From contig JAKLHH010000179.1 of assembly GCA_022710245.1 (NCBI GenBank), forward strand, positions 1-10,046: 10,046 nt of DNA, written 5' to 3'. The notes under the pieces were generated by a model. It was given only the letters and a program-made list of their open reading frames with translations. It was not told where the DNA came from and did no database searches. Made by a program: the position numbers and the translations under genes. Source of the stretch: Myxococcota bacterium. Lineage in GTDB: Bacteria; Myxococcota; Polyangia; GCA-2747355; JAKLHH01. Positions 829 to 9,726 of the stretch are shown here, in pieces (the first letter of the stretch is position 1; each line of letters begins with the position of its first letter).

Positions 829-1013
829 CTGGGCTCCTCCGGGGGCTAAGGGTAGAGCTTCGCGGCCTCTCCACAGCAAGGCGCGTGCCGCGAGGGGCGT
901 CCTGCCGTTCAGCGGGGTTAGCGCGGCCGCGCGGAGGGGTGGCCAGCAGAGCTGCAGGTGACTCCTCCGAAGTTCGATGAGGGGGCTTTTCCTCCGCGGT
1001 GGGTGGCCCTATC
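829..1013. other. Divergent intergenic region
   Basis: This 185-nt stretch lies between the divergent secreted-protein and lipoprotein genes and is the longest non-coding stretch of the window. It should hold promoters for both, but I cannot assign -35/-10 boxes with confidence in such GC-rich sequence. The only standout is a perfect 12-bp palindrome GCGCGGCCGCGC at 921-932, which could be an operator but is easily reached by chance at this composition. Confidence 0.4.
834..840 (-). promoter_or_regulatory. Ribosome binding site for the secreted protein
   Basis: Read on the minus strand this is GGAGGAG, 5 nt before the ATG at 828. It is one of the two best Shine-Dalgarno matches in the window, and it decides the start of the secreted-protein gene in favour of the ATG that opens the signal peptide. 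Confidence 0.7.
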
Positions 1014-1879
1014 ATGCGCGCCGTGCGGGTGCGCATCACAAGCTGGCCGCTCACGGCCGTCGCGGTGCTCCTCGGAGGCTGCTCCTTCAACGGCCGCGGG
1101 GTCTGGAGCGGCGGGGGCGACGTCGGTCAGGTCGACCGGGCGGGCGAGCGCGACGCGACGGCTCGCGACGCGGCGAGCGATCTCGCTCGCCCCGACAGCG
1201 CGCGTCCCGACCGTGGTGTGGACGGCCGATGGTGTGCCTGTCGGCGGCCGGGACCCTCTGCGCCCTCCCGGCCCCGGCGATCACCATCGACGCGGACCTC
1301 AAGGACTGGAGCACCGAGGGCTGGGTGAGCCTCACCGACTGGGCCGGGCTCGGCTCCAGCGAGACCACGCCGCCCGCCGCCGCCGACCTCTCCGCCCAGC
1401 TCGCCGCGCGCTGGGACGCGGGCGCCCTCTACCTCGCCGTCAAGGTCACGGACGACTCCCACAACAACCTCTACTACTCGGACCCCTGCAGCATGGAGAA
1501 CGGCGACAGCGTGCAGGTGGCCTTCGACGTGGCAGGCGACCAGGGCGACGAGCTCGACGACACCGACGACTACGTCTACGGCTGGGGCGTCGCCGGCAGC
1601 GGCATTGGCTGCCGCTGGTGGGCGCCCTCGAGCGCCGGGAAGTCGAGCTACACCTTCGCGGTCAAGCGCGCGATCCCCAGCACCACCTACGAGGTTCGCC
1701 TGCCCGCCGCCGACCTCGGGCTGGCCGGCCTGGTCGTCGGTAAGGCCCTCGGCTTCGCGGCGCGGGTCAACGAGAGCGACATCGGCAGCTACGGACGCGA
1801 TGGCTTCCTCGCCTGGCAGGGGGGCAGCGGCGAGGACTGGGACCCGTCGAAGTTCGGTGTGCTGAAGCTCAGCCCGTAG
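1014..1879 (+). CDS. CBM9/DOMON-like lipoprotein with apparent frameshift
   Basis: Two reading frames seem to make one gene. From the ATG at 1014 (weak GGTGG 7 nt upstream) the protein begins with a lipoprotein signal: Arg-rich start, hydrophobic core and lipobox LGGC with the lipidated Cys at 23. A flexible linker rich in Asp, Arg and Ala follows (DARDAASDLARPDSARPDRG). This frame hits a stop at 1328. The next frame, from about 1226 to the TAG at 1877-1879, encodes a domain resembling family 9 carbohydrate-binding modules: an ITIDADLKDW start, WDAGALYLAVKVTDD, NGDSVQVAFDV, TTYEVRLPAADLG and LGFAARVNESD. Third-position GC follows the first frame up to about 1224 and the second after it. One missing base near 1224-1228 would rejoin them (VDG then PMVCLSAAG), giving about 288 residues. 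Likely outer-membrane anchored and possibly glycan-binding. The shift may be a sequencing error, a real mutation or, less likely, programmed. A gene caller might start at 977 or at the ATG at 1229, but neither has a convincing signal peptide. It converges on the HdrB-like gene with a 33-nt gap. Confidence 0.7.
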
Positions 1880-1912: not shown

Positions 1913-2698
1913 TCAGATCCCGAGCGCGCGCCGCGAGAGGCCGAGCGCGAGCCCGAGGAGCTGCGGGTAGAGGAGCGCGGGGAGCCCGTCGCCCCCCAGC
2001 TGCTCCTGGCAGTAGGGGCAGGCGGTGCAGAGGCAGTCCGCCCCCGACTCGCGGGCGTCGGCGAGCTTGCCCGTGCGCATCCTCCCCGCGATGGTCGGGT
2101 TCGTCTCGGCGATGGGCGCGCCGCAGCACTCGAGCCGTCGCGGCCAGTCCACCGGCGTCGCGCCCGTCGCCGCGATCAGCCGCTCGAAGACCGTGGGCGC
2201 GTGCGGGCTGTCGAGGTCGACGACGTCGCTCGGCCTCAGCGCGTGGCAGCCGTAGTGCGCCGCGACGCGGCGGTCGCGCTGCGGCGTGGTGACCCGCGCC
2301 GCGATCGCCTCGGCGCCCACCTCGCGGTCGAGGAGGTCGAGGAGGTGCCGCACGCGCGTGCCGGCGGAGAGGAAGAGCCCCTCCCGCTCCAGCGCGGCGG
2401 CCACCGGTCCGCGCATCGCCTCGTCGTGCGTGAGGAGGTGCTGGGCGTGGCGGAGGCTGCCGTAGCAGCACTGGCAGAGCGTGAGCACGTCGAGGCCGCG
2501 AGCGCGCGCGACCGCGAGGTTGCGGGCGGCGAGGATGAGCCAGGCGTCGAGCCGCAGGTGCCGCGCGGGGTAGCCGCAGCAGGTGAAGTCGAGCTCGACG
2601 AGCTCGACGCCGAGGCGGCGCAGCACCGCCCGCGCCGAGCGCTCGTAGGCGGGCAAGCGCGCCGGGATCTTGCAGCCGACGAAGAGCGCGAGCTTCAC
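1913..2698 (-). CDS. HdrB-like CCG-domain Fe-S subunit
   Basis: A 261-residue protein resembling subunit B of heterodisulfide reductase and the C-terminal half of GlpC. It has two CCG domains. The first shows Cys9, the pair CCG at 40-41 and a Cys group at 75-78 (LCQCCYG). The second shows Cys151 (HYGCHALRPSD), CCG at 191-192 and CTACPYC at 224-230. Such CCG cysteines bind non-cubane [4Fe-4S] clusters in HdrB, and in GlpC and succinate dehydrogenase E they link a flavoprotein to the quinone pool. No membrane helix or signal is seen, so it should sit on the cytoplasmic side. The start is GTG at 2698. Its GTGA overlaps the stop of the membrane Fe-S gene, and a GGAGG lies 6 nt upstream, so the two are translationally coupled. 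It is the last gene of the minus-strand operon. Likely job: the terminal Fe-S piece of the glycerol-3-phosphate dehydrogenase complex. A separate Hdr-like partner role cannot be excluded. Confidence 0.88.
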   Translation of the reverse strand: MKLALFVGCKIPARLPAYERSARAVLRRLGVELVELDFTCCGYPARHLRLDAWLILAARNLAVARARGLDVLTLCQCCYGSLRHAQHLLTHDEAMRGPVAAALEREGLFLSAGTRVRHLLDLLDREVGAEAIAARVTTPQRDRRVAAHYGCHALRPSDVVDLDSPHAPTVFERLIAATGATPVDWPRRLECCGAPIAETNPTIAGRMRTGKLADARESGADCLCTACPYCQEQLGGDGLPALLYPQLLGLALGLSRRALGI

Positions 2699-4575
2699 GC
2701 GGCGCCTCCGTTGCTCTCGCCGCGGCCGCGCTCGCCTCCGTCGCTGACGCGGCCGCGCCCGCCTCCGTCGCTCTCGCCGCGGCCGTGCTCGCTCGCCGGG
2801 GGCAGCGCCGTCAGCCGCGCGTGGGCGCGGTTGCGCAGCTCGTAGAGGACGTCGGTGACGCGGATCCCCGCCGGGCAGTGCTCCTGGCACTGGTAGCAGG
2901 TCGCGCAGTCCCAGACCATCCGCGAGCCGAGCGCGAGCTCGACCAGGCCCAGCCGGAGGAGGTTCATGATCTTCTGCGGGGTCGCGTCCAGTTCGCCCTG
3001 CTCGCCTCCTGCGGAGGCTCCACGATGAAGGGCGAACTGTCGCTCGGCGTGCGCGGCGTCGCCTCGCCCGAATTGCGGGTCCTCGCCGCCGGAGCAGGCG
3101 ACCACCGGGCAGACGTTGGTGCAGGTCTGGCACTGGACGCAGGGCGTGAAGGCACGGCGGTCCTGCGTCAGCGCCGTGGTGGTGGGCGCGCCGGCGGCGG
3201 CGCCGCGGCTGGCCGCGAGGCGCTCGGCCCAGTCGGCGGCAGGCGTCGCCTTGATCCAGAGCGCCGCGCGCGGGTGCCCGCGCTCGGCGAGCGCGGCGCG
3301 ACCCGCCGCCCAGAGGTCCTCGAGCTCGAGGCCGACGGGGCAGGCGAGCGTGCAGCGGCCACACTCGCTGCAGGCGAGCGCGCCCTCGGCCGCGCGGCGG
3401 AGCGCGTCGCCACCCTCGCCGTCGCTCAGCTGTCCCGTGGCGAGCGCCCGCGTGGCGAGGAGCTTCTCCGCGGGGAGGACGCCGGGGTTGTCGAGGAGCG
3501 CGGCGAGCGGTCGTACCGAGCAGCGGGCGTCGCAGAGGCCGCAGCGCACGCAGGCGTCGAGGGCCAGCGCGCGACGCGTGGCGCGGTTCGCGGCGGCGGC
3601 GCGTGCGGCGGCGAGCCCCGTCCTGCCTCCTGCGCGGCGGGCCCCGGCGGCAGCGAGCAGCGCGACCGGGTCGGCGACGACGTGGAAGAAGCGGCTGAAG
3701 GGGAGGTAGGCGAGGCCGAGGAAGCAGAGGAGCAGGTGGAGGTGGTGGAGCCAGCCCTCGACGTCGCGGCGGGTCAGCGTCACCGCGAGGGGCGAGAGCG
3801 CGCGCGAGAGTGTGTAGGAGGCGACCGCGGCGCGCGGGCGCGAGTGGCAGCTCGCGCAGCCCTGCTCGTGCAGGTCCTTGCCGGCGGCGAGGAGCTTCGC
3901 GTCGGCGCGCGGCAGCCCGGCGAAGGCGACGCCGTGCTCGGCGGCCCAGTGCAGGCGCAGCGGCACCAGGTCGTCGCCCGAGGCGACCGGGTACTCGGCG
4001 ACCATGCGCTCGAAGGCGCGCGGCGAGGTGATCTTGAGCGCGGTCAGGAGGAAGCCCGAGCCGAGGACCAGCGCGAGGAGGAGGACGAAGCAAGGGTCGC
4101 GGCGCCGCGGGGCAGGCAGGGCGCGCCGCCGGAGCCGGCGCCAGGCCGCGCCGAGGAGGAGCCCGCCGACGACGAGCAGGCCGAGGAGGTCCCGCAGCCA
4201 GAGCCACGGGTTCAGCGTCGCCTGGTAGTTGCTGACGAGCTTGGCCGTCACCAGCGCGCCGAGCGCGTGGAGGAAGAGCAGCCCGCTGAAGCCGAGGACG
4301 ATGGCCAGGTGTGCGGCCCAGCGCACCGGGTCGGCGCGGAGCAGTCGTCGCTGCAGGAGCACGTCGCCGAGGAGCGCGAGGAGCTGGCGCAGGAGCGGCG
4401 CTCCGGCCAGCGAGGTGATCGCGCCCCGCAGCGCGGCGAGGAGGCGGCGTCCCGCCCCCGCCCGCTCGCCGGCCGCGCCGAGCCAGCGGGTGAGCCAGGT
4501 GGTGGCGCGCCAGAGGGTGCCCAGGGCCGCGATCGCGAGGGAGGCGTAGAGGGCGTAGCGCAGGAGCGGCGTCAT
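2695..4575 (-). CDS. Membrane cytochrome / polyferredoxin fusion (NarI-like + HdrC-like)
   Basis: A 626-residue fusion. The N-terminal ~300 residues hold five likely helices (about 5-22, 88-110, 127-145, 162-180 and 277-293), as in NarI/DsrM-type quinone-interacting cytochrome b proteins. Candidate heme ligands are His89, His103 and His277/278/280. Arg-rich loops after helices 1 and 3 point to the cytoplasm, which places loop 181-276 in the periplasm. That loop carries a single heme-c site CASCH (240-244). The cytoplasmic C-terminal half has four ferredoxin motifs CxxCxxCxxxC at 342-352, 402-412, 479-489 and 557-567. The last pair, with its spacing and the SRMVWDCATCYQCQEHCPAG context, is HdrC-like. 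A repeated Gly/Arg/Ser tail ends the protein. The start is ATG at 4575, with GGAG 8 nt upstream and an ATGA overlap with the GlpAB stop. Likely role: it accepts electrons from GlpAB and HdrB and passes them to the quinone pool or a periplasmic acceptor. The quinone site and the direction of electron flow are inferred. Confidence 0.85.
   Translation of the reverse strand: MTPLLRYALYASLAIAALGTLWRATTWLTRWLGAAGERAGAGRRLLAALRGAITSLAGAPLLRQLLALLGDVLLQRRLLRADPVRWAAHLAIVLGFSGLLFLHALGALVTAKLVSNYQATLNPWLWLRDLLGLLVVGGLLLGAAWRRLRRRALPAPRRRDPCFVLLLALVLGSGFLLTALKITSPRAFERMVAEYPVASGDDLVPLRLHWAAEHGVAFAGLPRADAKLLAAGKDLHEQGCASCHSRPRAAVASYTLSRALSPLAVTLTRRDVEGWLHHLHLLLCFLGLAYLPFSRFFHVVADPVALLAAAGARRAGGRTGLAAARAAAANRATRRALALDACVRCGLCDARCSVRPLAALLDNPGVLPAEKLLATRALATGQLSDGEGGDALRRAAEGALACSECGRCTLACPVGLELEDLWAAGRAALAERGHPRAALWIKATPAADWAERLAASRGAAAGAPTTTALTQDRRAFTPCVQCQTCTNVCPVVACSGGEDPQFGRGDAAHAERQFALHRGASAGGEQGELDATPQKIMNLLRLGLVELALGSRMVWDCATCYQCQEHCPAGIRVTDVLYELRNRAHARLTALPPASEHGRGESDGGGRGRVSDGGERGRGESNGGAA
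2705..2709 (-). promoter_or_regulatory. Ribosome binding site for HdrB-like gene
   Basis: Minus-strand GGAGG sits 6 nt before the GTG at 2698, inside the 3' end of the upstream gene. It supports the GTG start and coupling through the GTGA overlap. The motif is part of the tandem repeat unit, so copies of it also occur further upstream in the repeat array. Confidence 0.65.
2705..2791 (-). repeat. Three-copy tandem repeat in C-terminal coding end
   Basis: Three imperfect direct copies of 30, 27 and 30 nt start at 2705, 2735 and 2762, each opening with CCTCCGT(T/C)GCT on the plus strand. They encode the last ~30 residues of the membrane Fe-S protein as a hydrophilic repeat (GRGESDGG, GRGRVSDGGE, RGRGESNGG). 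The middle copy is 3 nt shorter, so the frame is kept. Each copy contains a minus-strand GGAGG; only the one at 2705-2709 is correctly spaced for the next gene. Confidence 0.75.
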
Positions 4576-7500
4576 CGGGCGCGCTCCGCCGCTCCGCTCC
4601 CGCGGCTCGCGCTCGCCGCGCTCGTGCGCGACCCGGCGAGGGCCGCGCGCGCGGCGTCCACCGCGACCCGCGCCGAGGCGATCGCCACGCCAGCGCCGCA
4701 CTTGGCGCGAGCCCAGTCGTGGTGGGCGAGCATGGTGCCGATCGCGAAGAGGAGCGCGTGCTGCGGCCTCCCCAGCGCGTCGCGCGGCCGGAAGGCCTCG
4801 TCGACCTCCACGCCCGCCTGGTTCACCGGGTGGCCGGCGGGATCGAAGAAGTCGGCGCGGTGCCACTCTGCGCGTGTCGGCGGCTGGTACACGGGGAGGT
4901 CCAGCAGCGCCTCGCGGACCTGCGCGCGGTCGGCGAGCAGCCCGCGTCCCATGAAGCGACCGGTGGCGAGCACCACGGCGCGGGCCCGCAGCGGCGCGCC
5001 GCCCGGCGCGGCGCCCTCGAGGTAGAGGGTGAAGGCGTCAGCCTCGGGCACCACGGCGACCACGCGCTGCTGGACGAGCCGGCGCACGCCGCGTGAGGTC
5101 ACCGCGCGCTCGAAGGCCTCCTTCAGGCGCAGGCCCGGGACCGACGGGGGCATGCCGGGGATCTCGAAGACCGGCGCCTCGAGGCGGCGCTCGAGCTCGG
5201 CGGCGATCTCCTCGGTGCGGCGGAGCCCGAGGACGGCGGGCAGCCCCACCGCCCTGGCGCCGCCGAGCTGCGGCCGGATCAGCGCGGCGAGCGCCGCCCG
5301 GCCCGCCTCGAGCTCGAGGGCGCGAGCGAGGTGCGCCGCGCAGACCTCGCCGGCTCGCTGGCCGGTCGCAGGCGAGGGCGCACCGGAGCGCGCTCTCTCG
5401 GGATCGTCCTGCAGCGCGCGCGGGTCGAGGCGGAGCGTGCGCAGCCCGGGCCAGCGCGAGCCCGCGACCGCCGCGATGGCGGCCGCGCTGTGCTCTCGCA
5501 GCCCCTCGAAGTCCACCAGCAGGCAGGGCGTCCGCGCGGCGAGGGCGCTGACCCCGGCGAGCATGCTCCGCGGCACGGCGTAGGTGGACTTCACCGTCCC
5601 CGCGCTGGTGAGGAGCTCCTGGTTCCTCTCGCCCGGCGGGGCGTAGACGAGCCCCGCCTCGGCGAGCGCCGCGAGCACCTCGTCGAAGCCGGCGCGCAGC
5701 TCGGCGGGAGCCACCCGCGCGTAGGGGTGGCGCGGCTCACGCGCGACCGCGGCGACCGCGGCCCAGGGGTCGGACCAGTGGCGGCCCTCGTCGAGGGGGT
5801 GCACGCCCATCAGGTCGAGCAGGCCGCTGGAGAAGAGGAGCGCGCCCGCGTTCCCGATCTGCACGGTGCGGAGCCCGCGGTTCCCGGCGAAGACGGCGGC
5901 GGCCATCCCCGCGAGGCCGGCGCCGACCACGGCCACGTCATGCACCGCCGGCGCGGCCTCGGGCGCCCGGCGAGGCGAGGCGCTCGCGCTCACCGCGCTG
6001 GCGACGGCAGGCTCACCGGTTTGCCCGCCGGATCGGGTACCGTCGGGGCCGAGCACCGCGGGCGCGGGCGGCGCCGGCACCTCTCCCGGCGCGGCTGGCG
6101 GGACCTCGCTGGCCTGGCCCGCGGCGGAGCGGCCGAGGAGCTCGCTGCCGTGGAGGCCGCAGTGGATCGCCTCGGCGAGCTCGGCCTGCGCGAGCTGGTC
6201 GCCCCAGAGCACGGGCCGCACCCCTCGCCAGCGCTCGCGCAGGAACTCGAGGCTCTCCTCGAGTCCGCGGGCGCCCGCGTAGGCGCCGCGATCGTAGAGG
6301 TGCGCGACGGTGCGGATGGTGCAGAAGCCGCCCTGGCAGGCGCCCTTGCCGAGCCGGCTGCGCAGCGCGAGGTCGGCGAGCAGCGATCCCGGGGCGACGC
6401 AGAGCTCGGCGCGCTCCCGCCCGGGATCCGCGGCGCCGGTCGCCGGGCGCAGCTCCGTGACCAGCGCGTCGACGGTGGTGCGCGAGACCATCTCGCACTC
6501 GCAGAGGAGCACGTCGCTCGGCCCGTGGCGTCGCATCCAGGCGCGCGGCCCCAGCGCGGGCTCCGTCCAGGCGCCGCCCGGGTCGGCGGGGAGCGGCTCC
6601 TCGCGCGTGCGGCAGGCGGCGCTGACGCCGAGGCGCCGGCAGGCGAGGTCGGTGGTGCGCTCGGCCATCAGGCGGCAGGTGGTGAGCTTGCCGCCGGTGA
6701 TGGTGATCAGGTTCGCGATCCGGTCCTGCGCGTGGTCGATCAGCGCGAAGCCGCGGCTCACGGCGCGCGCGTCGCCCGCCGCGGTCGCCGCCGCCGAGAT
6801 CAGCGGCCGCACCCCGGCGTAGGCGCGCACGAGGCGGGTCTCGCGCAGGAGCGGCAGCATCGCCGCCGCCTCCTCGACGATCAGGTCCACCTCCTCGGTC
6901 GTCGGCTGGATCTCCTCGAGGTCGTCGACTGTGATCGAGGTGGTGCCGACGATGGAGACGGTGCCGCCCGGCATCACGATGTCCGCGTTGCTCGGGCGCC
7001 GCAGCCGGTTGATCACGCGCTGCGCGAGGCGGGCGTGGGTGATGACCAGGGTGCCCTTGGAGTAGACCATCGGCACGCCGGCGCCGGCCAGCGCCGCGAT
7101 CTGCCGAGCCCAGGCCCCGGCCGCGTTGATCACCAGCTGCGGCTCCACCCGCAGCTCGGCGCCGGTCACCGTGCTCCGCAGCCGGGCCGCGACGATGCGC
7201 TCGCCCTCGCGCTCGAGCGCGACCAGCGCCGTGCGGCGGAGCAGCCGCGCGCCGAGTCGCTCGGCCTGCGCCATGCTGTCGAGGGAGAGCATGAACGGAT
7301 CGATGGACGCGTCGGGGACCGCGTAGACGGCGATCGCCCGCTCGGAGAGCGCGGGCTCGAGGGCGCGCGCCTCGGCGAGCGGCACCGCGCGGGCGGGGAT
7401 GCCGGCTCGCGCGCACATCTCCGGAAAGGCGGCGACGTGGTGCTCGTCGTCCCCCTCGACGGCGATGAAGAGACCGCCGGTGTCCTGGATGCACTGGGGG

Positions 7501-7742
7501 GCGAGGCGCTTGAGGATGGCGCCCTCCTCGCGGCACTCGATGGCCGCCGCGAGGTCGTTCGAGACGTAGCGCGCGCCGCTGTGCAGGAGGCCGTGGTTGC
7601 GGCCCGAGGCGCCCGCGTTGAGGTCAGCGCGCTCGACGAGGACACAGGCGACCCCGCGCAACGCGAGGTCCCGAGCGACCGCGGTGCCGGTCGCCCCGCC
7701 CCCGACGATGAGGACCTGGGTCTCCACTGCGCCTGCAACCAT
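4572..7742 (-). CDS. glpAB: GlpA-GlpB fusion, anaerobic glycerol-3-phosphate dehydrogenase
   Basis: One uninterrupted 1056-residue protein joins two subunits that are separate in E. coli (GlpA 542 aa, GlpB 419 aa). The GlpA part (about 1-540) starts with an FAD-binding motif VGGGATGT (13-20), then GASGRNHGLLHSGARYV (44-60), INAAGAW, YSKGTLVI, VGTTSI, YAGVRPL and ITITGGKLTT, which closely match E. coli GlpA as I recall it. A BFD-like [2Fe-2S] domain follows with CxC (414, 416) and Cx4C (469, 474). A Pro/Ala/Ser-rich linker spans about 541-598. The GlpB part (about 600-1056) has a dinucleotide motif VGAGLAGM, LFSSGLLDLM, GTVKSTY, PGMPPSVPGLRL, VVLATGRFMGRGL, ADFFDP and a final FAIGTMLA. It converts glycerol-3-phosphate to dihydroxyacetone phosphate at the inner membrane face, passing electrons to the two Fe-S genes downstream. 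The ATG at 7742 is preferred, although its ribosome site is weak; GTG at 7727 is an alternative. A GTG at 5945 in the linker might give free GlpB. Confidence 0.93.
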   Translation of the reverse strand: MVAGAVETQVLIVGGGATGTAVARDLALRGVACVLVERADLNAGASGRNHGLLHSGARYVSNDLAAAIECREEGAILKRLAPQCIQDTGGLFIAVEGDDEHHVAAFPEMCARAGIPARAVPLAEARALEPALSERAIAVYAVPDASIDPFMLSLDSMAQAERLGARLLRRTALVALEREGERIVAARLRSTVTGAELRVEPQLVINAAGAWARQIAALAGAGVPMVYSKGTLVITHARLAQRVINRLRRPSNADIVMPGGTVSIVGTTSITVDDLEEIQPTTEEVDLIVEEAAAMLPLLRETRLVRAYAGVRPLISAAATAAGDARAVSRGFALIDHAQDRIANLITITGGKLTTCRLMAERTTDLACRRLGVSAACRTREEPLPADPGGAWTEPALGPRAWMRRHGPSDVLLCECEMVSRTTVDALVTELRPATGAADPGRERAELCVAPGSLLADLALRSRLGKGACQGGFCTIRTVAHLYDRGAYAGARGLEESLEFLRERWRGVRPVLWGDQLAQAELAEAIHCGLHGSELLGRSAAGQASEVPPAAPGEVPAPPAPAVLGPDGTRSGGQTGEPAVASAVSASASPRRAPEAAPAVHDVAVVGAGLAGMAAAVFAGNRGLRTVQIGNAGALLFSSGLLDLMGVHPLDEGRHWSDPWAAVAAVAREPRHPYARVAPAELRAGFDEVLAALAEAGLVYAPPGERNQELLTSAGTVKSTYAVPRSMLAGVSALAARTPCLLVDFEGLREHSAAAIAAVAGSRWPGLRTLRLDPRALQDDPERARSGAPSPATGQRAGEVCAAHLARALELEAGRAALAALIRPQLGGARAVGLPAVLGLRRTEEIAAELERRLEAPVFEIPGMPPSVPGLRLKEAFERAVTSRGVRRLVQQRVVAVVPEADAFTLYLEGAAPGGAPLRARAVVLATGRFMGRGLLADRAQVREALLDLPVYQPPTRAEWHRADFFDPAGHPVNQAGVEVDEAFRPRDALGRPQHALLFAIGTMLAHHDWARAKCGAGVAIASARVAVDAARAALAGSRTSAASASRGSGAAERAR

Positions 7743-7771: not shown

Positions 7772-8644
7772 TCAGGCGTGGGTCGGATGGGTAGGTGAGG
7801 GCGAGCCTTCGGCCGGAGCTGGTGGCGTCTCGCTCGGTGGCGCCTCGGCCGCGTGAGGCGGCGGCGGTGCGCCCGCCCGCTCCTGCCGACCGAAGATCAA
7901 CGTGATGGCGATGGTGCGGTGGAGCCCGCCCGCGGTCCCCAGCACGGCGCTGATGATGAGCAGGACGGCGACCGGCCAGTAGAAGGGGTGCGCCGCGGTG
8001 GGGTCGATCCAGAGCTGCGCGACCGGCGTGAACACGCTCACCACCGAGAGCCAGACCATGCGCTCGGCGCGCTGGAAGATGCCCTTGTTGTACTCGAGCC
8101 CCATCACCTCGCCGCGGGCCCGGGTGTAGCTCATCATCATCGAGCCGGTCACCGTGAGCGCGCAGGTGAGCATCATCCACCACCAGTCCCGGTAGTAGAC
8201 GGCGAGCCCGAGGTAGATGGCGATCTCCACGTAGCGATCGCAGACCGCGTCGAGGAAGTCCCCCGAGCGGCTGGTGGTGTTGGTCAGGCGCGCCACCCAG
8301 CCGTCCATCATGTCGAGCGCGCCGGAGACCAGCAGCAGCCAGCCCGCCGCGCCGAACCAGCCGACCCCGTAGGCGGCGCCGGCGAGCACGCCGACGATGG
8401 TGGAGAGGATCGTCACCTGGTTCGGGGTGAGGCGCAGCTTGATCAGCCCGCTGACGATGTGCTCGAGGCCCCAGAAGAACCAGTGCGCGCCGAAGCCGGG
8501 GATGAGCACGTTCTTGGTCGGGTTGATCTTGGCGCTCGGCTGATAGCCGTGGCGTGCGCGCTGCACGGCGAAGACGGCCATGCTGAGCAGGGCCAGACCG
8601 AGCACGGTCAGGTGAGGCCAGAGCGCGACGAGGATCGATCGCAC
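7772..8644 (-). CDS. CDP-alcohol phosphatidyltransferase family protein
   Basis: A 290-residue membrane enzyme of the family that transfers a phosphatidyl (or similar) group from a CDP-activated lipid to an alcohol. The signature is complete: D111xxD114G115xxA118R119-x8-G128xxxD132xxxD136, where the aspartates bind the metal ions and the CDP group. About six to eight hydrophobic helices are visible, including an N-terminal one (about 11-28). SYTRARGEVMG (172-182) and the FQRAERM that follows resemble phosphatidylinositol- and phosphatidylglycerolphosphate-synthase relatives, but the acceptor alcohol cannot be told from sequence alone. The ~35-residue Pro/Ala-rich tail is beyond the conserved core and probably disordered. 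The start is GTG at 8644, 8 nt after the lipid kinase stop, with only a weak GAG ribosome site; ATG at 8581 is possible but would remove most of the first helix. It lies between a lipid kinase and glpAB, consistent with a glycerophospholipid pathway. Confidence 0.88.
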   Translation of the reverse strand: MRSILVALWPHLTVLGLALLSMAVFAVQRARHGYQPSAKINPTKNVLIPGFGAHWFFWGLEHIVSGLIKLRLTPNQVTILSTIVGVLAGAAYGVGWFGAAGWLLLVSGALDMMDGWVARLTNTTSRSGDFLDAVCDRYVEIAIYLGLAVYYRDWWWMMLTCALTVTGSMMMSYTRARGEVMGLEYNKGIFQRAERMVWLSVVSVFTPVAQLWIDPTAAHPFYWPVAVLLIISAVLGTAGGLHRTIAITLIFGRQERAGAPPPPHAAEAPPSETPPAPAEGSPSPTHPTHA

Positions 8645-8652
8645 GGGCAGGC

Positions 8653-9726
8653 TCAGCGCGAGAGGCCGGCGGACCGGGGCAGCCAGATGCGCAGCGGGGG
8701 GCCGCTCGCGATGCGGATGTCCGAGCTGCCGCCCTCCATCCGCTCGCCGTCGAGCGCGTAGCCCGAGCCGTAGCCGTGCAGGATGAGCGTGCGAGCGTGC
8801 CCGGTGAGGTGCTTGGCGTCGCCGTGGTAGCGGTTCATGAGCAGCTTGTAGGGGCGCTTGAACATCTCGCGAGTGGACATGAAGTTGACCAGGTACGAGA
8901 AGCGGCGCTGGCTCGCGGCCAGCGGCGCCGGGCAGGGCCTGAGGACCGGCAGGTGCTCGTGGAGGGTGGTCGCGATGGTCATCTTGAAGCCATCGCAGCC
9001 GCAGTCCTCGCCGTCGACGGAGACGCGGGCCGGCGTGTCGCTGAAGATGTGCTTGCCGAACGGGGTCCCGAGCGCGCCGCCGATCAGCAGCCGGGCCAGG
9101 CCGAAGAGCGCCAGCTCCTTGCGCGTGCCGCGGCCCAGCGAGTGGATGTACCGGTTGAGCTTGTACGGGATGCCCGCCATCAGGATGAAGCCGAGGACGT
9201 CCCGCGGCAGGCGCGGGTCGTGGACCCGGATGGTGCCGAGCTGCCTCTCCCGCAGCGCGGCTCCACCTCTGGCGGCGTCGCGCAGCGACCCGAGCAGCTC
9301 CGCGCGCCGCTGCAGCAGCCCGAGGTTGCTCGCGACGGCGTTGTAGGAGCCGCCGCGCAGCGGGACGAAGGCCGGCAGCTCGAGCTCGCCGTAGCGGAAG
9401 TAGGCCTCGGTGACGGTCGCCTGCAGGCTGCCGTCGCCGCCGTCGACGACGATGACGTCCACGCCCTCCTCGCGAAACTCCCGGACCACCGCCGCGAGCC
9501 CGGAGAGCTGGTCGGTCTGCCGGATCAGCGCGCGCGAGCCGAGCAGGTCGCGGTAGAGGGCGAGCGCCTGCGGGTGGCGGACGTTGCGCCCCGAGTGCGG
9601 GTTGTGGATGAGACCGAGCTTCACCTCGGCCAGCTGCTCGGGCTCGAGCTTGCGCGACTCGTAGGGGCTGTCGGCAGTCGGCGGCTCCCAGCGAACCGGC
9701 CTGCGTGAGACTCGAGCAGTGACCAT
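8653..9726 (-). CDS. Diacylglycerol/sphingosine kinase family lipid kinase
   Basis: A 357-residue protein with the DAGK catalytic fold. A first strand with NPHSGRN (42-48) resembles the N-terminal nucleotide-site motif. VDGGDGSLQ (94-102) is the GGDG signature that holds the ATP phosphates, and VPLRGGSYNAVASNLG (121-136) takes the place of the usual P-x-GTxNdxA segment. A late ALDGE followed by beta-rich SSDIRIASGPPLRIWLP closes the second domain. The family phosphorylates diacylglycerol or related lipids to phosphatidic acid at the membrane. The true substrate is unknown, and the middle part (about 240-310) is unlike YegS, with cysteines at CGCDG and an HLPVLRPCP segment. The start is ATG at 9726 with a weak ribosome site. 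The first ~34 residues are hydrophilic and precede the catalytic domain. The gene is followed after 8 nt by the phosphatidyltransferase, and phosphatidic acid is the precursor of CDP-diacylglycerol, so adjacent steps in lipid synthesis are plausible. Confidence 0.83.
   Translation of the reverse strand: MVTARVSRRPVRWEPPTADSPYESRKLEPEQLAEVKLGLIHNPHSGRNVRHPQALALYRDLLGSRALIRQTDQLSGLAAVVREFREEGVDVIVVDGGDGSLQATVTEAYFRYGELELPAFVPLRGGSYNAVASNLGLLQRRAELLGSLRDAARGGAALRERQLGTIRVHDPRLPRDVLGFILMAGIPYKLNRYIHSLGRGTRKELALFGLARLLIGGALGTPFGKHIFSDTPARVSVDGEDCGCDGFKMTIATTLHEHLPVLRPCPAPLAASQRRFSYLVNFMSTREMFKRPYKLLMNRYHGDAKHLTGHARTLILHGYGSGYALDGERMEGGSSDIRIASGPPLRIWLPRSAGLSR

Follow-up and report, generated by a model that had tools for sequence, protein, structure and literature searches.

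Three genes and a membrane arm

We analyzed a 10,046-nt stretch of contig JAKLHH010000179.1 from a Myxococcota bacterium (hereafter the window; coordinates refer to this whole stretch, position 1 being its first letter). Three genes on its minus strand encode, in order, a fusion of the glycerol-3-phosphate (G3P) dehydrogenase subunits GlpA and GlpB, a membrane protein bearing heme and iron-sulfur cluster motifs, and an HdrB-like protein. Both gene junctions are 4-nt overlaps (ATGA, then GTGA). The gene set appears to burn G3P, with quinones or proteins beyond the inner membrane as possible recipients of electrons from its membrane arm. A first-pass annotation of this DNA had proposed the merger of GlpA with GlpB and the two overlaps, and both are confirmed by open reading frame (ORF) coordinates and family scores. 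Scanning the window for Rfam families and tRNAs gave zero matches.

For comparison, we scanned species genomes for the membrane protein and obtained 157 relatives, of which the best 80 were kept. GlpA and/or GlpB lie directly upstream of the arm in 26 of these 80 relatives, which we call Glp-linked. The features of the three genes are listed below.

4572..7742, minus strand: GlpA-GlpB fusion, 1056 amino acids (aa); FAD-dependent G3P dehydrogenase, BFD-type [2Fe-2S] region and second flavoprotein
6123..7742, minus strand: GlpA part, residues 1-540, with substrate-site candidates R58, R312, R330 and K352
6321..6503, minus strand: predicted [2Fe-2S] binding region of GlpA (C414, C416, C469, C474), motif in 25/25 relatives
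5955..6122, minus strand: Ala/Pro-rich linker, residues ~541-596, joining the GlpA and GlpB parts (from the sequence)
4638..5954, minus strand: GlpB part, residues ~597-1035 (NF003725 score exceeds the cut-off)
2695..4575, minus strand: membrane protein, 626 aa; NarI-like helices, c-heme loop and two dicluster domains, the second HdrC-like
3844..3858, minus strand: CxxCH candidate c-heme site, residues 240-244, conserved 81/81, in the long loop flanked by model helices 161-182 and 272-293
3340..3552, minus strand: first dicluster domain, eight Cys, residues 342-412, SdhB/FrdB-like (Pfam, alignment and fold)
2875..3141, minus strand: second dicluster domain, eight Cys, residues 479-567, HdrC-like (family scores, alignment and fold)
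1913..2698, minus strand: HdrB-like protein, 261 aa, GTG start, two complete CCG motifs

The flavoprotein combines GlpA and GlpB

Family scores place both halves of the flavoprotein among the subunits of GlpABC. The GlpA part exceeds the NF008313 cut-off (461.9 versus 425) and falls slightly below that of TIGR03377 (532.7 versus 552.8), while the GlpB part exceeds two cut-offs (NF003725, 503.8 versus 345; TIGR03378, 210.9 versus 174.15). Cys 414, 416, 469 and 474 of the putative [2Fe-2S] site are kept in 25/25 GlpA relatives. The same holds for R58, R312, R330 and K352, which align with positions conserved among G3P dehydrogenases of solved structure and which we take to be substrate-binding residues.

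In all 25 relatives where both genes can be read, GlpA and GlpB are separate ORFs (the contig of the remaining Glp-linked relative, L018, starts within GlpB). A search for fused proteins, restricted to proteins of similar length, yielded among the matches listed three fused relatives with 61%, 61% and 49% identity at 93-98% query coverage, and seven remoter ones with 33-37% identity, one of them named as Chloroflexi. Because the linkers of the three closest relatives are unlike the window linker, the fusion is probably real, and these other fusions rule out an assembly slip as its origin. It is rare, atypical and unnecessary for the system. A fused protein (P0122) and a membrane protein (P0049) share their listed source and a longest contig of 5972, which suggests that both lie on one contig.

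Predicted heme and cluster ligands of the membrane protein are invariant

In the alignment of the window with its 80 relatives (81 rows), His 89, 103, 280 and 298, the CxxCH motif at 240-244 and sixteen cubane Cys of the membrane protein are invariant (81/81), as they are in a 70-row alignment of the window with 69 sequences chosen from the listed proteins. The four His would suit two b hemes, by analogy with NarI, and the motifs of the membrane protein, GlpA and HdrB probably carry the corresponding cofactors. At the level of motifs, this bears out the cofactors proposed in the first-pass annotation, namely four cubanes, two CCG sites, hemes b and c and a [2Fe-2S] cluster.

Basic and acidic residues number 8 and 1 in the loop before helix 161-182, and 12 and 10 in the CxxCH loop, a pattern that fits a periplasmic position of the CxxCH loop, given inside iron-sulfur domains. 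A hydropathy scan at 1.5 missed the N-terminal helix (3-29 of the structure model) and picked 56-74, so the count of five helices rests on the model and on the match to NarI. The likeness to NarI itself comes from the fold and from precomputed PF02665 matches in many relatives; a Pfam search of the window protein at E 0.01 gave no PF02665 match. With Foldseek, the single match of the model below E 0.001 was EtfD (M. smegmatis, 9ojn), the electron-transfer flavoprotein (ETF):menaquinone oxidoreductase (EMO). As in EtfD, a NarI-like membrane domain is joined to a Hdr-like iron-sulfur domain; the CCG domain is encoded not in the same chain but by the next gene.

An Hdr-type arm probably takes the place of GlpC

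The CCG motifs encoded by that gene are complete (C9, CC40-41, C75xxC78; C151, CC191-192, C227xxC230), and each of their Cys is conserved in at least 24 of the 25 Glp-linked relatives. Pfam PF02754 matches the HdrB-like protein in two stretches, and its best solved relative is a methanogen HdrB (E 6.4e-48). It scores 202.6 bits as HdrB (cut-off 345.15) and 20.9 as GlpC, while the membrane protein scores 47.9 bits as HdrC (cut-off 160); two GlpC models, with cut-offs of 278 and 279.9, give it 34.1 and 20.7. The best GlpC scores of the two proteins, 34.1 and 20.9, thus compare with a cut-off of 278. The first-pass annotation had described a re-partitioned GlpC, a claim that is not supported: scores favor HdrB and HdrC, and the nearest solved fold is EtfD. 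A split of GlpC into two proteins is ruled out by the family scores, and the sequences read as a replacement of GlpC by an Hdr-type arm. Canonical GlpC exceeds its cut-off in 2/26 Glp-linked genomes, both times within frames of 977-995 aa, lengths unlike GlpC, and matches below the cut-off occur in 26/26.

Compared with CoB-CoM heterodisulfide reductase, the set has an HdrB with two noncubane CCG sites, but its HdrB and HdrC scores do not reach equivalog level. The HdrB site might itself be catalytic, reducing or oxidizing a disulfide or a DsrC-type protein and exchanging the electrons with the membrane arm. We judge this very unlikely. The two complete CCG motifs and the 202.6-bit score speak for it, as does the contrast with EtfD, an electron relay in which one site is changed to a linear [3Fe-4S] cluster according to the available text of PMC13083937. 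Nevertheless, the system occurs in beta-proteobacteria and myxobacteria with G3P uptake genes adjoining in many loci, the HdrB score stays below the CoB-CoM reductase cut-off, and the scanned neighbor clusters contained no disulfide-linked family, most neighbors lying outside that scan.

GlpAB association is a property of a subfamily of arms

In the other 54 of the 80 relatives, GlpAB was not seen in the available flanks, 38 of which have at least 1.4 kb upstream. By tblastn, 38 of these 54 loci have an HdrA2-like gene, which follows the arm downstream in 37, against 0/26 Glp-linked loci. The one example scanned carries a NuoG-type N-terminus and reaches 794.6 bits against the HdrA2 model (cut-off 1100). 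This HdrA-linked sister family is mostly Desulfobacterales, has HdrB beside the arm in most loci and shares the invariant heme and cubane ligands with Glp-linked arms. Six of its loci (L030, L046, L051, L052, L055 and L056) have a NuoF-like gene by the arm, of which the L046 copy was scanned, preceded by a small gene; these neighbors suggest an NADH- or ferredoxin-linked use.

Trees were quick, midpoint-rooted and supported by the Shimodaira-Hasegawa-like approximate likelihood-ratio test (SH-aLRT) only, with long branches flagged. A single branch (SH-aLRT 100) splits the 27 Glp-linked arms, window included, from the 54 others. We added ten arms from the family of L016's genome (arm matched in 6/12 genomes) and the phylum of L001's genome (6/235 genomes, three already-known loci). 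Nine could be labeled, six with GlpB and three without; L083, whose flank is too short, was omitted from the group counts and placed with the unlinked arms in the tree. In this second tree, which took in one third of the unlinked arms, one branch (support 99) separates 33 Glp-linked from 21 unlinked arms. All nine labeled arms fell on the expected side, and the GlpAB association is therefore a property of the subfamily, beyond this window. The predicted arm is an exchangeable module, serving GlpAB in one family and an HdrA-like flavoprotein in the sister family. The first-pass annotation had counted an HdrC/HdrB pair found mostly without GlpAB and next to another dehydrogenase as evidence against itself. 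Here the outcome is mixed: GlpAB was not seen in the available flanks of 54/80 relatives (16 of them undecidable), and an HdrA-like gene accompanies 38 of these arms, yet a single branch sets all Glp-linked arms apart from the others.

The conserved c-heme motif bears on the electron acceptor. The system could be a G3P:cytochrome c oxidoreductase, with b hemes ferrying electrons to the periplasmic c heme and on to periplasmic cytochromes that end at metal oxides, nitrite or oxidases, and with little or no quinone reduction. This fits the invariance of CxxCH (81/81) and the loop charge pattern, which suits an outside position, and the Glp-linked locus L001 (Myxococcales) carries, next to its Glp-linked genes, an 1834-codon ORF with 39 CxxCH motifs (10093-15594, minus strand), a giant multiheme cytochrome candidate. 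We consider it unlikely, however. ORFs with at least three CxxCH motifs lie near the arm in just 1/26 Glp-linked and 2/54 unlinked loci, the c-heme motif is not specific to G3P because the sister family has the same one, and NarI works with quinone. So does EtfD, a nearest solved fold, in the available text of PMC13083937.

Neighboring genes and substrate

Neighbor genes come from a simple calling script whose output includes some false antisense genes. Among the 26 Glp-linked loci, 12 have UgpB nearby, 10 a GlpK or GlpK-like kinase and 4 a GlpR-type regulator, and 17 have at least one of these. With GlpK from L065, UgpB from L004 and GlpR from L024 as tblastn queries, only L040 and L065 among the ten kinase loci proved close to GlpK; L082, L084 and L085 also have a downstream GlpK. 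One example each of UgpB, UgpE, UgpC and glycerophosphodiester phosphodiesterase exceeds its cut-off, and the UgpA label of neighbor cluster c1 fits L024 poorly (59.6 versus 335). Upstream in L024 and L040 are a GlpR-type regulator, two ABC ATPases and permeases, presumably resembling a glycerol ABC importer. Four Glp-linked arms (L007, L014, L015 and L069) have nearby a long protein of cluster c6 (858-1317 aa as called), whose L069 copy contains FAD-oxidase, Fer4, CCG, DUF3683 and DUF3400 domains.

Two lipid genes lie upstream of the fusion in the window.

7772..8644, minus strand: CDP-alcohol phosphatidyltransferase, 29 nt upstream of the fusion (Pfam/NCBIfam)
8653..9726, minus strand: diacylglycerol-kinase-like lipid kinase (Pfam/NCBIfam)

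The best NCBIfam match of the former is archaetidylinositol phosphate synthase (132.6, cut-off 180). Separated by short gaps, both genes are possibly in one operon with the G3P genes. Their position directly upstream would suit an inward flow, in which dihydroxyacetone phosphate is reduced with electrons from quinol or a periplasmic cytochrome and the resulting G3P feeds lipid synthesis. But tblastn found both genes in 0/80 relatives' loci, which also rules them out as components of the system, and 17/26 Glp-linked relatives adjoin uptake or catabolic genes, making inward flow extremely unlikely. At the other end, a protein with a CBM9-like carbohydrate-binding domain (977-1879, plus strand) is convergent with the operon end.

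A probable respiratory G3P dehydrogenase

Altogether, we read the set, with good but not full confidence, as a respiratory G3P dehydrogenase in which the role of GlpC has been taken over by a membrane arm of the Hdr/EtfD type. The gene order, the conservation of ligands and the association with a subfamily are observed. G3P would be converted to dihydroxyacetone phosphate at the FAD of GlpA, as the conserved residues and neighboring genes suggest. By analogy with E. coli GlpAB, electrons would then pass via the GlpA [2Fe-2S] cluster and the GlpB flavin and, following HdrABC and EtfD, through the HdrB noncubane clusters and HdrC cubanes. From there the SdhB-like cubane pair, whose ligand motifs are present like those of the b hemes, would lead in this presumed order to the membrane b hemes, and the last step may be to quinone and/or to the periplasm-facing c heme and a periplasmic cytochrome. 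Quinone would be the default acceptor by comparison with EtfD and NarI, and the invariant c-heme motif makes a cytochrome route conceivable. The membrane-integrated G3P oxidoreductase of the first-pass annotation is supported, with an Hdr-type arm, cofactor motifs and a spread over several phyla, while the split GlpC is not supported and the label 'undescribed' is too strong.

Several points weigh against this reading. From the genes we infer cofactor binding, electron order, physiological role and the acceptor, be it quinone, cytochrome c or a disulfide. Both noncubane sites keep all their ligands, as in a disulfide reductase. UgpB, GlpK-like and GlpR neighbors are absent from 9/26 Glp-linked loci (two of them short contigs) and from the window. 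The scanned GlpR falls slightly below its cut-off (323.6 versus 331), and three scanned beta-proteobacterial kinases, for which GlpK is the best model, reach 204-265 bits against a cut-off of 590. Of the unlinked arms, 16/54 have less than 1.4 kb upstream, where linkage to GlpA is undecidable. Finally, a GlpD-type protein occurs in 25/26 Glp-linked genomes at E <= 1e-40, exceeding its cut-off in 4, and the set therefore need not be the main G3P route. It is probably a second, conditional G3P dehydrogenase, like GlpABC beside GlpD in E. coli.

A bolder proposal, which we find rather doubtful, is that GlpAB, HdrB and the NarI/c-heme/HdrC protein form a new type of bacterial G3P dehydrogenase, passing electrons through its own c heme straight to periplasmic cytochromes and built on an exchangeable arm whose cytoplasmic flavoproteins, GlpAB or HdrA-like, depend on the lineage.

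According to the available text of a 2025 paper, canonical bacterial glpA is consistently accompanied by glpB and glpC (PMC11962113). The Glp-linked arm family, with record titles from Myxococcales, beta-proteobacteria, Desulfobacterales and Spirochaetes, is a bacterial exception. It indicates that one membrane electron arm serves different flavoproteins, and it makes possible a clear test of the role of an invariant, probably periplasmic c heme in a G3P-oxidizing complex.

Comparison with known systems

The window system shares GlpA and GlpB, by family score, with anaerobic E. coli GlpABC, along with an iron-sulfur arm taking electrons to the membrane. It differs in the fusion of GlpA with GlpB and in its arm, a NarI/c-heme/HdrC protein plus a separate HdrB in place of GlpC. 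With methanogen HdrABC and HdrDE it has in common an HdrB with two complete CCG motifs, an HdrC-type cubane pair and a b-heme membrane arm, which in HdrDE is HdrE. Its flavoprotein is GlpAB and not HdrA, its scores are below the equivalog cut-offs, and a heterodisulfide substrate is not expected.

The best fold match is EtfD (9ojn), in which a NarI-like membrane domain likewise runs into Hdr-like iron-sulfur domains. The partner of EtfD is ETF, a family absent from the nine window ORFs in a Pfam scan, whereas that of the window arm is GlpAB. The noncubane clusters lie within the EtfD chain (PMC13083937, available text), while in the window the CCG motifs are on a separate protein, and the CxxCH motif and extra cubane pair of the window arm set it apart from EtfD, by sequence and by the same portion of that paper.

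The 2009 genome paper of Desulfobacterium autotrophicum HRM2 comes close to the window system. In its available text, genes for membrane Hdr proteins (HdrF) are reported beside glpAB, and the authors propose that electrons are transferred between the two (PMC2702500), which makes the earlier claim that such a set had not been described too strong. HdrF is described as having HdrC and HdrB domains and up to six membrane helices, one HdrF comes from two genes (named HdrF1/F1' in the legend of the supplement and hdrF2F2' in the main text), and a c heme goes unmentioned in that part of the paper (PMC2702500). HRM2 HdrF may belong to the window arm family. In the open-licence literature, we found no account of this c-heme arm with GlpAB.

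The HdrA-linked sister family (54/80 loci) has the same membrane arm with an HdrA2-like gene, GlpAB not being seen. According to the accessible part of a 2023 paper, a syntrophic sulfate reducer has an HdrA-associated complex that includes a c-heme, CCG-bearing protein (PMC10553843); this complex is perhaps akin to the sister family. S. acidocaldarius GlpA-CoxG also places a GlpA-type dehydrogenase on a membrane anchor other than GlpC, but its CoxG-like anchor is thought not to carry electrons (PMC11962113, available text). With GlpAB as its dehydrogenase and an EtfD/Hdr-type arm that bears a c-heme motif, the window system is a variation on known enzymes.
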